Shown here piece by piece: positions 4,132 through 22,371 of a stretch of DNA of 24,243 bases. Each line of letters opens with the position of its first letter. The first letter of the stretch is position 1. The stretch spans positions 1-24,243 of IMG/VR virus record IMGVR_UViG_3300020053_000051. The stretch is one strand, 5' to 3'. Origin of the DNA: a virus. Position numbers and translations under genes: made by a program. A model generated the notes under the pieces. The model worked only from the letters and a program-made list of their open reading frames with translations, did not search any database and had not been told where the DNA came from.

Positions 4132-4517
4132 TGTGCGGTCCTTCCGGCCTTCATCAGCATCATGCGGGCAGTGTTGCGCATGATCGTGCGTTCGGTGATC
4201 TCGGGTTTGACCAGCGCGATGAGCTCGGCGGGTGCCGGAAAGAACGTGCATCGCTCCATCGCCCGCTGCCGTGTCGTCTCGATCAAATCCTGCGGGATGC
4301 TGCGGCACAGCGCCTCTGCCATGTCGGCAAGCATCATGGCTTTGCCCTGGCGATCCAGCACCGCCATGCTGCGGCTCGGCAAGCAGGCGAGGCGGCCAAG
4401 CACTGCTGCCCAGGCTTTCGGGTCTGACGGGGCGAGGCCGCGCTCGAGCGTTGCCAGATCGGCCGCGATGACATCGGCCTGCTCGTCAGAAACCCTCGGC
4501 ATTTCCGAGAAGGCCAT
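4128..4517 (-). CDS. Hypothetical protein downstream of the replication initiator, possible helicase-loader position
   Basis: About 129 aa from the ATG at 4517, or 124 aa from the ATG at 4502. A longer reading to 4658 would overlap the upstream gene by 173 bp and is not favoured. It is mostly helical, with an RCTFFPAPAELIALVKPEI segment near residues 90-110, a pattern seen in small phage replication-associated proteins. It lies directly after the O-like protein, where lambda has the helicase loader P. Here the helicase precedes the initiator instead. A loader or replication-accessory role is a guess from position only. The stop overlaps the next start (GTGA). Confidence 0.65.
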   Translation of the reverse strand: MAFSEMPRVSDEQADVIAADLATLERGLAPSDPKAWAAVLGRLACLPSRSMAVLDRQGKAMMLADMAEALCRSIPQDLIETTRQRAMERCTFFPAPAELIALVKPEITERTIMRNTARMMLMKAGRTAQ

Positions 4518-5289
4518 AGTCGAGCAGGTCTTGATCGTGTCGTGGGCGACCAGCACCCGCTGCAAGACGGGCAAGTTCTTGGAACTCGCCTGCGCCTGAA
4601 TTTGCTGATTGCTGCCCGTTGCCATTGCCGTTCCTTCCATATTCGACCGTGTTTCCAACCCAGGTTTGCCAAGCGCGCTGCCAGTTTTTCATCGTGTTGC
4701 CCCTGGCGCGGTGATGGCTGGTGAACTTCTCGACCTCTCGTCGGAATCGGCCGTCATCCCAGCCTGCGACGATCTGCCCCGCCTCGGTTTTTGGCCCGAA
4801 CGGTTTTGGTTCCCAGTCTCTGGGAAGCTTCCGAGCGACCTTCGTTTCGCCATCCTCCCGATCATCCTCGTCGCCAGCGTCGATATCGAGCTGGGCAGCA
4901 GGCGCGTCATCGCGCTCGCCCGGTTTGGGGGTGGGGGGATTAAGGGGGGAGTTATTTTCTTTAAGGGGGGTGTGGGGGGATTTTTCTTTATCAGAGGGGG
5001 GAGAAAGGGGGGAGGGGTCGAGATCGTCACCGGAAGCGTAACAAGTGACGCTTTGTGACGCATTGTGACGCTCGGTTACGCCTTGTTCGCCCTCGAAAGC
5101 GTCACCCGTTACGCTTTGTGACGCCTTGTTCGCACGGTAACGTCGCATCCTCAGAGCGGCCTTCGAGGGTCCTTTTGGCTCGGCTTGGTCAAGGATCGCC
5201 GCCTCAATATCCGCAATAGCCGCGACCAAGGCATCGCCTTCGACGCCAGCTGCCATCAGGTGCTTTACGGCGGTAGCGATGATGCTCAC
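4486..5289 (-). CDS. Phage replication initiation protein (lambda O / DnaT-like C-terminus)
   Basis: A 267-aa protein with a GTG start overlapping the helicase stop (GTGA). Residues 1-40 are helical. MRRYRANKAS (48-57) is a basic segment common in alphaproteobacterial phage replication proteins. Residues 85-150 form a Pro/Ser/Asp-rich linker encoded by the C-runs of the coding strand. LPRDWEPKP (155-163) and the WDDGRFRREVEKF to NWQRAWQTWV stretch (177-211) resemble the DnaT/O-type C-terminal domain that contacts helicase and single-stranded DNA. It lies next to a DnaB helicase and carries iteron-like repeats within its own gene, as lambda O does. Family assignment is by motif; the N-terminal DNA-binding fold is not recognisable by eye. 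Confidence 0.7.
   Translation of the reverse strand: MSIIATAVKHLMAAGVEGDALVAAIADIEAAILDQAEPKGPSKAALRMRRYRANKASQSVTGDAFEGEQGVTERHNASQSVTCYASGDDLDPSPLSPPSDKEKSPHTPLKENNSPLNPPTPKPGERDDAPAAQLDIDAGDEDDREDGETKVARKLPRDWEPKPFGPKTEAGQIVAGWDDGRFRREVEKFTSHHRARGNTMKNWQRAWQTWVGNTVEYGRNGNGNGQQSANSGAGEFQELARLAAGAGRPRHDQDLLDYGLLGNAEGF
4927..5017. other. G-tract with A+T-rich interludes, candidate origin-unwinding element
   Basis: The plus strand has G-runs at 4927-4931, 4933-4938, 4944-4949, 4965-4970, 4974-4979, 4996-5001, 5007-5012 and 5014-5017. They are separated by short A/T-rich pieces such as 4950-4964 and 4980-4993. The 10-mer TTAAGGGGGG occurs twice, at 4940-4949 and 4961-4970. On the coding strand this encodes the Pro-rich linker of the replication protein. 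Adjacent G-runs with short loops could form a G-quadruplex. It lies beside the repeat cluster at 5033-5133, much as the A+T-rich element borders the iterons in lambda ori. Confidence 0.5.
5033..5133. repeat. Iteron-like 10-bp repeats, candidate replication origin
   Basis: On the plus strand GTGACGCTTT-like units start at 5045, 5055, 5065, 5075 (GTTACGCCTT) and 5085 (decayed GTTCGC), exactly 10 bp apart. A second group starts at 5108 (GTTACGCTTT), 5118 (GTGACGCCTT) and 5128 (GTTCGC). Inverted copies lie at 5033-5042 (GAAGCGTAAC) and 5096-5105 (AAAGCGTCAC). The repeats fall in all three codon phases of the gene they lie in, so the selection appears to act on DNA rather than protein. Initiator-binding iterons inside the initiator gene are known from lambda. 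Confidence 0.6.
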
Positions 5290-6743
5290 AGCTCGAACTC
5301 CACATTCATGTCAGCCGGACGCCAGCCCTCGTTCCTGATCGCCATCAGGTGCCCGAAGAACTGGCAGCGGTGAGTGCCGACCTTGCCCTGCCGGCGTTTG
5401 GCGCAGATCAGGTCGAGCTTGTTGCGGCAGGCGGCGATCTGGGCCTGCCAGTTGACCCAGGCCTCGTCATCGCGGCGATGCTCGACGGGCTTGGCGGCCT
5501 CGACGTAATATTCCTCGCGGAAGGGGAAGACGACGTTATCGGCGTCCTGCTCGATCGATCCTGAATCGCGCAGGTCGGAGAGCATGGGGCGCTTGTCCTC
5601 TCGGCTCTCGACGCCGCGGCTGAGCTGGGACAGCAAGATGATGTGCAGCCCTGTCTCGCGCGCCAGTGTCGCGATACCGGACGTGATCTCGCTGATTTGC
5701 TCGACCCGGTTTTGGCGAGGGTTGGAGCCGCCCATCAGCTGGAGATAGTCAATCACCAGCACCCGGAATTCCTTACCCATGCGCTCGAACTGCTTGGTCG
5801 TGGCGCGGACGTGCCGTTTCAAGGCCGTCAGGGTCATGCCAGGCTCTTGAACGAGGATGATGGGCATCCGCTCCGCCTTGGCGCGCGCTGACCTGATCAC
5901 CGCGCGTTCGGCGGCCGTGAAATTGCCTTTCATCATGGTGTCGAACCGGATGGCAGGGTCGGCATCGGCGCAGATATCGGCAATGGCACGGCGCATGATG
6001 TCGTCATTGTCCATCTCGAGCGAGAAGAACGCGCCGCCGAAGCCCTGCTCAGCCGCCGCCATCAGCACTTTCATCGCGGTCGCGCTCTTGCCCATGCCAG
6101 GGCGTCCGGCGATGACCGTCTTTTTGCCGCGAGCAAGAGGGCCAATCGCACACTCGAACGCCTCGAATGTCGGCAGCGATATCCGGCCGCCCTGCTCGCC
6201 GTCCTCATTGTCCGCCATGATCTGCAGGGTGTCGTCGAAGGCCTCGGCGAACGTCTTGGGCTTGCGGCGGGCTGTTGCGGTCGCCAGCGCGCTCAGGCGC
6301 TCTTGTAAGGCGTCGATATGCTCGGCAGGCGCGATACCGTCTGACGTGTCCGCTGCGGCGGCGCGAACCTCGTCAGCGGCAGTGATCAGGGCGCGCAGCT
6401 GGGCGAGGTCGCGGATCTGCTGGGCAAAGTCCTGGTGACCCAGGGTCGCGCCAATATCGCCGGTGAGCCGGGCGAGATACGCCATGCCCCCGATCGCCTC
6501 GAGCGCCGGATCGTTGGCGAAATACGGTTTGAGGCTGACGGGCGTGACCGTTGCGCCGCCGTCGATCATGTCGACGATGCGCCGGTAGAGCCGCTGGTGC
6601 AGGGGTTCGTGGAAATGCTCGGGCTCGACGATGCCACGAACCTTGTCCGCGATCTCGTTGCGAATGAGGATAGCGCCGATCAGCGCAGCCTCGGCTTCGA
6701 CGTTGCTCGGCAGCTTTTCAGGGGCGACGGCAGGCTCGCTCAT
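5286..6743 (-). CDS. dnaB: Replicative DNA helicase, DnaB family
   Basis: A 485-aa hexameric 5'-3' helicase that unwinds the phage replication fork. The N-terminal DnaB domain starts at LPSNVEAEAALIGAIL (11-26). The RecA-like core has Walker A GRPGMGKSA (213-221), the FFSLEM helix (239-244), Walker B VLVIDYLQLM (328-337), the SQLSRGVESR arm (372-381) and DLRDSGSIEQDAD (390-402). Length is normal and no intein is seen. The ATG at 6743 overlaps a TGA in the preceding small gene's alternative frame (ATGA), and the stop overlaps the next GTG (GTGA). As a self-encoded helicase next to an O/DnaT-like protein it forms the replication module. The family is very secure; that it is phage-borne follows from the surrounding operon. 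Confidence 0.96.
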   Translation of the reverse strand: MSEPAVAPEKLPSNVEAEAALIGAILIRNEIADKVRGIVEPEHFHEPLHQRLYRRIVDMIDGGATVTPVSLKPYFANDPALEAIGGMAYLARLTGDIGATLGHQDFAQQIRDLAQLRALITAADEVRAAAADTSDGIAPAEHIDALQERLSALATATARRKPKTFAEAFDDTLQIMADNEDGEQGGRISLPTFEAFECAIGPLARGKKTVIAGRPGMGKSATAMKVLMAAAEQGFGGAFFSLEMDNDDIMRRAIADICADADPAIRFDTMMKGNFTAAERAVIRSARAKAERMPIILVQEPGMTLTALKRHVRATTKQFERMGKEFRVLVIDYLQLMGGSNPRQNRVEQISEITSGIATLARETGLHIILLSQLSRGVESREDKRPMLSDLRDSGSIEQDADNVVFPFREEYYVEAAKPVEHRRDDEAWVNWQAQIAACRNKLDLICAKRRQGKVGTHRCQFFGHLMAIRNEGWRPADMNVEFEL

Positions 6744-20138: not shown

Positions 20139-20320
20139 CGGCAGCGGCGCGCTTTACCCAGGCCGACATGGAGCGAGCCGTAAAGACCGCCAAGAAGGTC
20201 GCGGGCCGCGAGCGCGCGCGTGTGGTGTTCAGGTTGGACAACAGGGAAATCGAGTTCATCATCGGCGAATCGACGCAGGACCAGCCTGCGCCCGAAACCT
20301 GGAGCGATGATGATGTCTGA
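20135..20320 (+). CDS. Small protein directly upstream of integrase, 61 aa
   Basis: The ATG at 20135 overlaps the previous stop and is preceded by GGAGGAGCGGAAGGG. The product, starting MTAAARFTQADMERAVKTAK and including REIEFIIGES, belongs by appearance to a small protein that regularly precedes integrases in alphaproteobacterial prophages. A recombination-directionality role is a reasonable guess from position. It overlaps the integrase start by 8 bp or more. Confidence 0.7.
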   Translation: MTAAARFTQADMERAVKTAKKVAGRERARVVFRLDNREIEFIIGESTQDQPAPETWSDDDV

Positions 20321-21404
20321 CCTACCCGCCCATGTCTGCGAGGTCTTCGACCGGCATGGCAAGATCCGCTACCGCTTTCGCCGCGCCGGCTTCCGGTCGG
20401 GCTACATCAAGGCCGAGCCGGGGACGCCCGAGTTCATGAGGCGCTATGCAGAACTGCTCGAGGGGAAGGTCGAGCGCACGGCCATCCAGTCGCCGAACCG
20501 CGTTGCCCCGCGCAGCCTCGATGACCTTGGCCAGCGCCTGCGCGCCACCGTCAAATGGCAGCGGCAGGCTTCGTCGACCAAGACGGTCTATGGCGGGATC
20601 ATCGATCGGTTCTGCGACACCAAGGACCGCAAGGGCAGGCGCTATGGCGAGAGGCCGGTCGCATCGGTGACTGTGGGCTGGCTCGAGAACATCTTGGGCC
20701 AGATGGCTGATCGGCCGCAGGCGGCGAACATGCTGCGCAAGACGGTTCGCCGGATGCTGAACCACGCGATCAAGCTGGGCTGGCGCACGGACAATCCCGC
20801 CGATCTTACCGATGCCTATCCGAAGGGTGAGGGCTATCACTGCTGGACCGAGGAGGAAATCGCGCAGTTCCGTCAGCACCACAAGCTGGGCAGCACGGCA
20901 CGTCTCGCCATGGAGCTCGCCCTGAACACCGCCGCGCGCCGCTGCAATGTCGCCAAGATCGAGCGCGAGCATATCAAGGACGGCCGCATCTCGGTGCAGC
21001 ATGTGAAGAACGGGAACGCGACCCGCGTTGCGATTGCGCCGGAGACGCGCGCGGCGATCGATGCCATGCCCGCAGCGCCCATTCGCCACCTGATCGTGAC
21101 CAAGTTCGGCAAGCCCTACACCGTCGCCGGATTCGGCAACGCTTTCAGGGAATGGTGCGACCAGGCCGGTCTGCCGAAGCGCTGCTCGATCCATGGACTG
21201 CGCAAGGCTCGCAGCCGCCAGCTGGCAGAGGCTGGCGCGACCGATGCCATGGGCCGGTCATTCACCGGGCAGAAGAAAAACGAGACGTTCGCCTATTACG
21301 CCGCAGCGGCTAACATGGACGCGCTGGCAGACCAAGCCATGTCCAACCTTGAACAAAGTGGCTTTGTCCAACCTCAGAAAAAGGACGATATTTCAGATGT
21401 TTGA
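20313..21404 (+). CDS. int: Tyrosine-type site-specific integrase
   Basis: A 363-aa recombinase that integrates and excises the prophage. The N-terminal arm-binding part (FDRHGKIRYRFRRAGFRSGY) is followed by a core-binding SAM-like domain (about 68-165). The catalytic domain has ALNTAARRCNVAKI with Arg209, a beta-hairpin Lys near 232 (QHVKNGN), SIHGLRKARS with His294 and Arg297, and FTGQKKNETFAYY with the nucleophile at Tyr328 or 329. The usual His of the GH motif is Gln320. In-frame ATGs at 20307, 20310 and 20313 are all possible starts; GGAG at 20301 allows the last two. The gene ends 10 bp from the tRNA-Asn gene, its likely target. Confidence 0.93.
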   Translation: MSDLPAHVCEVFDRHGKIRYRFRRAGFRSGYIKAEPGTPEFMRRYAELLEGKVERTAIQSPNRVAPRSLDDLGQRLRATVKWQRQASSTKTVYGGIIDRFCDTKDRKGRRYGERPVASVTVGWLENILGQMADRPQAANMLRKTVRRMLNHAIKLGWRTDNPADLTDAYPKGEGYHCWTEEEIAQFRQHHKLGSTARLAMELALNTAARRCNVAKIEREHIKDGRISVQHVKNGNATRVAIAPETRAAIDAMPAAPIRHLIVTKFGKPYTVAGFGNAFREWCDQAGLPKRCSIHGLRKARSRQLAEAGATDAMGRSFTGQKKNETFAYYAAAANMDALADQAMSNLEQSGFVQPQKKDDISDV

Positions 21405-21582: not shown

Positions 21583-22371
21583 TCAGACGATAAATTGTTC
21601 GGCCGAAATGCGGTCGTCGAGGCTGTGGCCCGGATCGAACATCAGCGACAGGCGGCGGTTGGGGTCGATGGCGATCTGGATATCGCGGATATCGCGCACC
21701 TCGCGCTGGTCGGCCACCGCGCTGACCGGGCGTTTGCCGGGTTCCAGCACGCGGAAGGTGATCTGCGACGAATCGGGCAGCAGCGCGCCCTTCCACCGGC
21801 GCGGGCGGAACGGGCTGATCGGCGTCAGCGCCAGCATGCCGCAGCCCAGCGGCAATATCGGCCCGTTTGCGGACAGGTTATAGGCGGTCGAGCCCGCAGG
21901 CGTCGCCACCAGTACACCGTCACAGACCAGTTCGCCGATTCGCACCGCGTTGTTGACGCTGACCTCGAGCTTGGCGGTCTGGCGCGTCTCGCGCAGCAGC
22001 GACACCTCGTTGATGGCAGGATAGGTGACGCGCTCGCCGCTCATCGTGGTCGCGGTCATCGACAGCGGCAGCACCTCGAAGCTCTGCGCCCGTTCTAGCC
22101 GGTGCACGATGCTGTCTCCGCTGCGCCAGAGGTTCATGAGGAACCCAACGGTGCCGAGGTTCAGGCCATAGACCGGCACGATCCGCCCGCGTTCGAGCAT
22201 CTGGTGCAGCGTCTGCAGCATGAAGCCGTCGCCGCCCATGACGACGACGATATCGGCCTCGTCCAGGCTGGCCCATTCATGCGCCGCCTGCACCTCGCGC
22301 GCCGCCTTGCGCGCCCTTTCGGTAGGGGAGACGGCCAGCGCGATTTTGCGGTCAATAACCGATGGGGGCAT
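21583..22371 (-). CDS. nadK: NAD kinase
   Basis: A 262-aa enzyme that phosphorylates NAD to NADP in the cytosol. The GGDG motif (46-49, in VVVMGGDGFMLQTLHQM), NLGTVGFLMN (71-80), an AINEVSL segment near 118-124 and GVLVATPAGSTAYNLSANGP (about 153-172) are the conserved family blocks. It lacks the longer N-terminus of some NadK proteins, as in many alphaproteobacterial forms of about 255-260 aa. It is a host housekeeping gene upstream of the tRNA on the same strand and divergent from the EAL gene. It gives the anchor for where the prophage ends. Confidence 0.95.
   Translation of the reverse strand: MPPSVIDRKIALAVSPTERARKAAREVQAAHEWASLDEADIVVVMGGDGFMLQTLHQMLERGRIVPVYGLNLGTVGFLMNLWRSGDSIVHRLERAQSFEVLPLSMTATTMSGERVTYPAINEVSLLRETRQTAKLEVSVNNAVRIGELVCDGVLVATPAGSTAYNLSANGPILPLGCGMLALTPISPFRPRRWKGALLPDSSQITFRVLEPGKRPVSAVADQREVRDIRDIQIAIDPNRRLSLMFDPGHSLDDRISAEQFIV

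Follow-up and report, generated by a model that had tools for sequence, protein, structure and literature searches.

A GTNAC repeat array and a strand-biased C-tract within a phage initiator-like gene: a candidate intragenic replication origin recurring in many phages

Are the short repeats that lie among the codons of a phage initiator-like gene there for the sake of the protein, or do they mark the site at which the phage starts to replicate? The question is raised by the window, a 24,243-bp virus record, where the GTG start of a gene for a 267-aa protein overlaps the stop of the upstream DnaB-type helicase gene, both on the minus strand (Table 1). A sequence-only reading of this DNA had placed a candidate origin in the gene and had called its product an O/DnaT-like protein encoded next to DnaB. 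The adjacency was confirmed by the open reading frames and by Pfam. As for the protein, weak PHROG matches (phrog_1408, "replication initiation protein", E 3e-5, and also PHROG 1032) agree with a role in initiation, but a Pfam search returned no match and, by this measure, it is not an O homologue. Neither the Phage_rep_org_N (PF09681) nor the DnaB_2 domain of SPP1 gp38-type proteins was found in it by Pfam, and the same search detected one or the other in a few other array carriers. Elsewhere in the window, a tyrosine integrase gene (20220-21404) lies near what by eye looks like an NAD kinase gene of the chromosome (21583-22371), and the record seems to include a prophage/host border.

Table 1. 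Positions of the replication genes, protein modules and DNA elements in the window
Feature	Position	Strand	Basis
Initiator-like gene, 267 aa, GTG start	4489..5289	minus	ORF list; phrog_1408 match
DnaB-type phage replicative helicase gene, directly upstream of the initiator gene, same operon	5286..6743	minus	PF03796 E 6e-62, PF00772 E 2e-22
Codons of N-terminal helical hairpin, residues 1-35	5185..5289	minus	AlphaFold2 helices 3-13, 18-35, pLDDT 84-94
Codons of basic helix, residues 43-58, SKAALRMRRYRANKAS	5116..5163	minus	Modelled helix 43-58; alignment of relatives
Iteron array, 10 GTNAC sites in both orientations, 8 with GC flank	5026..5141 (116 bp)		Site scan; synonymous recoding
C-tract with A/T interludes (G-tract on plus strand), candidate unwinding or loading element	4925..5018	minus	Synonymous recoding
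Codons of C-terminal helical domain, about residues 165-222, candidate helicase/ssDNA domain	4624..4797	minus	AlphaFold2; identities

The GTNAC sites of the array start at 5026, 5038, 5045, 5055, 5065, 5075, 5101, 5108, 5118, and 5137. Those at 5045, 5055, 5065, 5075, 5108, and 5118 are forward copies of GTNACGC, and inverted copies, which had also been reported, are present as GCGTNAC at 5036-5042 and 5099-5105. Instead of the 10-mer unit proposed earlier, the core is GTNAC, a short palindrome to which a GC on one side gives orientation. Five such units had been placed exactly 10 bp apart at 5045-5085; four are good, but the fifth (5085, GTTCGCCCTC) is degenerate and lacks the core, and in the second set, beginning at 5108, the units at 5108 and 5118 hold while the third (5128, GTTCGCACGG) is likewise degenerate and coreless. 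The repeats are real, but the array extends beyond the units first described, to 5026 and 5137.

The density of these sites is peculiar to this segment: the maximum in 120 bp is 10 GTNAC in the array and at most 2 anywhere else in the window, where the site scan found no second cluster. In 200 dinucleotide-preserving shuffles the mean maximum was 2.5 and the largest 4, and among the 16 patterns of the form abNb'a' GTNAC alone is far above background in the window. The coding requirement was assessed by synonymous recoding, which keeps the peptide identical and follows the codon usage of the window. Behind the basic helix there are nine GTNAC sites where recoding gives 3.6, and eight sites of the GTNACGC type where it gives 1.5 (p<0.0005 for both). 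The nine sites are distributed 3/4/2 over the codon phases, which bears out the earlier argument for DNA-level selection from repeats in all three phases. The short repeated sites inside this initiator gene, a feature of the lambda and SPP1 kind, exceed what coding requires.

Adjoining the array is a tract of biased composition, a candidate unwinding element, and the G-tract with A/T interludes noted beside the repeats proved genuine. Seven of the window's 27 runs of five or more G fall in 4925-5020 (plus strand; C on the coding strand). Runs of four or more C take up 45 bases of the tract against 17.3 under synonymous recoding, runs of five or more A/T stand at 28 against 5.6 (p<0.001 for each), and proline is encoded as CCC in 10 of 12 cases. 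Because both array and C-tract go beyond the synonymous expectation, both are held at the DNA level. The same bias was observed across 27 related phage genes, with 581 bases in C-runs against 258 by recoding, 371 in A/T runs against 187, and 134 of 250 prolines as CCC against 66, whereas G-runs, the internal control, were at expectation (55 against 56).

A search for homologues of the whole protein yielded only the contig L001, the closest relative, which covers the gene from the C-tract on and leaves the array side outside, and bacterial genomes searched with the whole protein gave no homologue. Identity in the C-terminal domain is 80% in L001 and 40% in Sphingopyxis phage VSN-002. Both L001 (at base 1) and L132 (at the contig end) break inside the C-tract, which suggests that the tract breaks assemblies.

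AlphaFold2 modelled the three N-terminal helices at good confidence and placed further helices in the C-terminal part (169-175, 179-195, and 200-220, pLDDT 76-86). The linker predicted to be disordered coincides exactly with the codons that hold array and tract. In the basic helix the core RMRRYR spans residues 47-52, and R47 and R52 are invariant across 24 relatives. Foldseek found no fold match in the PDB for the full model or the N-domain, which is therefore without a known DNA-binding fold in that comparison. The basic helix may be bZIP-like, with a resemblance to GCN4, which we keep as a lead only. Matches to TALE proteins in a PDB sequence search were discarded as repeat-inflated stretches of 13-17 residues.

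When viral contigs were scanned for three GCGTNAC at 10-bp steps, at least 120 stretches were found, and at least 120 also came from the scan at 11-bp steps; the reversed-motif control gave 35. Among the matches listed, the open reading frames over the motif were mostly those of initiator-like proteins of many architectures, other early genes being without the array, and the commonest PHROGs of the 142 non-redundant frames were replication initiation, DnaD-like loader, O-like, primosomal, and replisome organizer. Loci selected through DnaB were distant (~35% identity), many apparently not phage DnaB, and clusters of 4-6 GTNAC in 120 bp, whether close to DnaB or at other places, were limited to six loci. 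In the Streptococcus phage Javan454 (L620, ~2299-2553), ten GTNAC, mostly GTNACGC and several at 10-bp steps, occupy non-coding DNA between two replication genes, together with AT-rich DNA and GGGGTAGGGTAGGG. By eye, these genes seem to encode a primase-polymerase and a D5-type helicase, unrelated to the initiator of the window. Intergenic sites of this kind were also present in two other loci (L101 and L105).

Relatives were also chosen blind to the array, by DNA encoding the peptide GAxRQxRYR[DE]R only, a pattern used because alignment-based patterns of the N-domain were too variable to search. In about 20 initiator-like frames selected in this way, the 150 nt that follow contain 3-11 GTNAC; chance matches to the peptide mostly had 0-2. 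The initiator-like exceptions were L417 and L419, which are of one family and whose VT codons start later, and L418 (293-505) and L424 (14477-14674), in which an HNH-endonuclease-like sequence stands directly behind the basic helix, at the place expected for the iterons, and GTNAC is missing there. Loci with at least three sites entered the pool only once their counts had been seen, and so should be judged against the recoding of their own peptides. In the pooled relatives, about 20 other phages, GTNAC occurred 146 times against 67.5 by recoding and GTNACGC 105 times against 19.4, with GTNAC divided 60/60/26 over the codon phases. The distances between GTNAC pairs peak at 7, 10, 5, 12, 17, and 19 bp. 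The 10-bp spacing emphasized by the sequence-only reading is present in the window, but it is one arrangement only, with 7, 5, and 12 bp also common; a spacing of one helical turn is common without being universal, and no single geometry is conserved.

That reading had also made its origin depend on the survival of the repeats in homologues, and there the GTNAC arrays and the C-tract are kept beyond the protein requirement. It had described the candidate origin of one prophage, and the pattern is real but far more widespread than that. Here and in many phages, the DNA that follows the basic-helix codons is under constraint, as DNA, to keep GTNAC(GC) sites and, beside them, alternating C-runs and A/T-runs. 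The window gene has the arrangement by which we propose to recognize a GTNAC / RQxRYR initiator class, namely a basic helix followed by a GTNAC array and a C-tract.

The array follows the N-terminal module. The C-terminal domains of array-bearing relatives belong to different, unrelated families, and proteins sharing only the C-terminal domain are generally without the array: eight named phages that have only this domain in common with array carriers lack it, and initiators with the NGWxGLFP C-domain and other N-domains had a cluster in 0 of 19 non-redundant viral loci. Of the 65 non-redundant initiators collected through another C-domain, 10 had arrays; a profile of the basic helix, trained on phages outside this set, put array carriers in all of the top seven places (AUC 0.84, p 4e-4). 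A motif-free search of these 65 genes detected significant repeats in 20 (p<0.01), of differing sequence, some being simple peptide repeats and several clear iterons.

Phages with other N-domains thus carry other repeats at the equivalent place in the initiator gene. Further iteron types at this place are the CGAAACG/CGTTTCG repeats of L577 (~1235-1330) and the four 11-bp tandem units of L545 (~1245-1295), three of GGGACAGTCAC and one of GGGACAAATGT. In L532 and L539 (~1200-1330) the N-domain is kept, the helix is altered to RRA[WY]DR[DE]RKR, and TTCC/GGAAT repeats replace GTNAC beside a retained C-tract, possibly a natural switch of specificity. Arginine-rich segments without GTNAC occur in Roseburia phage Shimadzu, Faecalibacterium phage Brigit, and Pseudomonas phage Hali, and the arrays of L549 and L603 come with no basic helix; the helix by itself is thus not the code.

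The array recurs, it is associated with the N-terminal module, and it is adjacent to DnaB. Array and tract together are probably the origin from which the phage replicates, carried within its own initiator gene, and the intergenic GTNACGC sites of the Streptococcus phages, located between replication genes and some at 10-bp steps, were counted as support. The element is best read, from its sequence, as an iteron origin inside a gene, built on the same logic as lambda ori and SPP1 oriL, with another recognition module and another iteron. On this reading, the helical hairpin and the basic helix RxxRYR, which form the N-terminal module, would bind GTNAC sites as iterons; the resulting nucleoprotein complex would open the strand-biased C/A-T tract beside them; and phage DnaB helicase would be brought to the opened DNA strand by the C-terminal domain, which is exchanged between phages. 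With the sites encoded in the disordered interdomain linker, recognition module and target would stay together when modules recombine.

The sites could instead form an operator: by binding GTNAC, the initiator or some other regulator of the phage would then govern how the replication operon is transcribed and not the start of replication. Clustered short palindromic sites would suit a regulator too, and the intergenic position in the Streptococcus phages is one where an operator could also lie. However, in the window the array falls within the downstream gene of an overlapping pair, after DnaB and with no gene start adjacent; the strand-specific C-tract/A-T element travels with it; and, among the matches listed, arrays lie in initiator genes of varied architecture and in no other early genes. 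We regard an operator as unlikely.

Still less probable is that the array serves a host factor or another phage factor, for example in recombination, packaging, or partition, and is in this gene by happenstance. A large terminase gene does lie ~2.8 kb downstream on the same strand, and GTNACGC beside the seemingly unrelated replication genes of Streptococcus phages is what a shared external factor predicts, but the iteron is tied to the N-terminal module and becomes a different one when the helix is altered, and where the N-domain is another, other repeats occupy the same gene position. Selection could also act on the protein itself, with a low-complexity, VT/SQ-rich linker repeated by slippage and the DNA repeats as a by-product. 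The peptides ASQSVT and SVTRD, among others, recur, any VT codon pair contains GTNAC, and about half of the sites are expected from recoding alone. In phases 1 and 2, however, it is the choice of codon that decides whether a site is present, GTNACGC is fivefold above recoding, inverted copies exist, the Streptococcus arrays are non-coding, and C-runs exceed expectation where G-runs do not, so that this explanation is very improbable.

The preferred reading, an intragenic origin, has parallels in two known systems. The lambdoid ori in gene O also lies in the middle of an initiator gene, with iterons and then an unwinding tract, and O likewise joins a DNA-binding N-part to a helicase-facing C-part, with a neighbouring replication gene; lambda has four iterons and Stx phages six, each longer and an inverted repeat, with an AT-rich tract (PMC7466680). 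The window differs in its core of 5-7 bp, GTNAC(GC), at 7/10/5/12-bp steps in both orientations, in its strand-biased C-run/A-T tract, in having no O homology, and in the phage-encoded DnaB. In Bacillus phage SPP1, oriL is similar in its direct repeats within the replisome-organizer gene (gene 38), its adjacent AT-rich unwinding element, and the phage DnaB-type helicase; SPP1 differs in having oriR as a further origin and gp39 as a distinct loader (PMC6316719). By comparison, the window protein is without Phage_rep_org_N and the window has no second GTNAC cluster. The BstA/aba system, a DNA element within a prophage gene, was set aside as a parallel, its sequence and biology being different.

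We consider about as likely as not the broader proposal of a widespread, undescribed class of phage origins, from Alphaproteobacteria to Firmicutes, in which a GTNAC(GC) iteron is hidden in initiator codons, a small helical/basic-helix reader module is freely joined to unrelated helicase-recruiting domains, a strand-specific C-tract serves opening or loading, and iteron specificity changes with the basic helix. A literature search, with most subscription journals outside its scope, found no earlier description of the motif or of such a class. To our knowledge, apart from the lambdoid and SPP1 groups, most temperate phages have no mapped origin, and a motif readable from sequence would make origin and initiator specificity predictable in many phages and would explain why replication modules recombine as a unit. 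The GTNAC, GGAAT, and GAAAC types would offer a natural series for how a short basic helix recognizes DNA, and the strand-specific C-tract is a candidate opening element unlike the usual AT-rich one.

Another close parallel is offered by the initiators of Escherichia phage Evi and Aeromonas phage pAEv1818, whose annotation goes no further than primosomal protein I or replication initiation protein. They too have intragenic GTNAC arrays, at 10-11 bp steps, one of which follows an arginine-rich segment, but they differ in an unrelated N-domain and in having two arrays per gene. In Evi (L441) the arrays are at gene positions 128-163 and 388-433, one of them in the codons of the N-domain, and L442 is likewise arranged.
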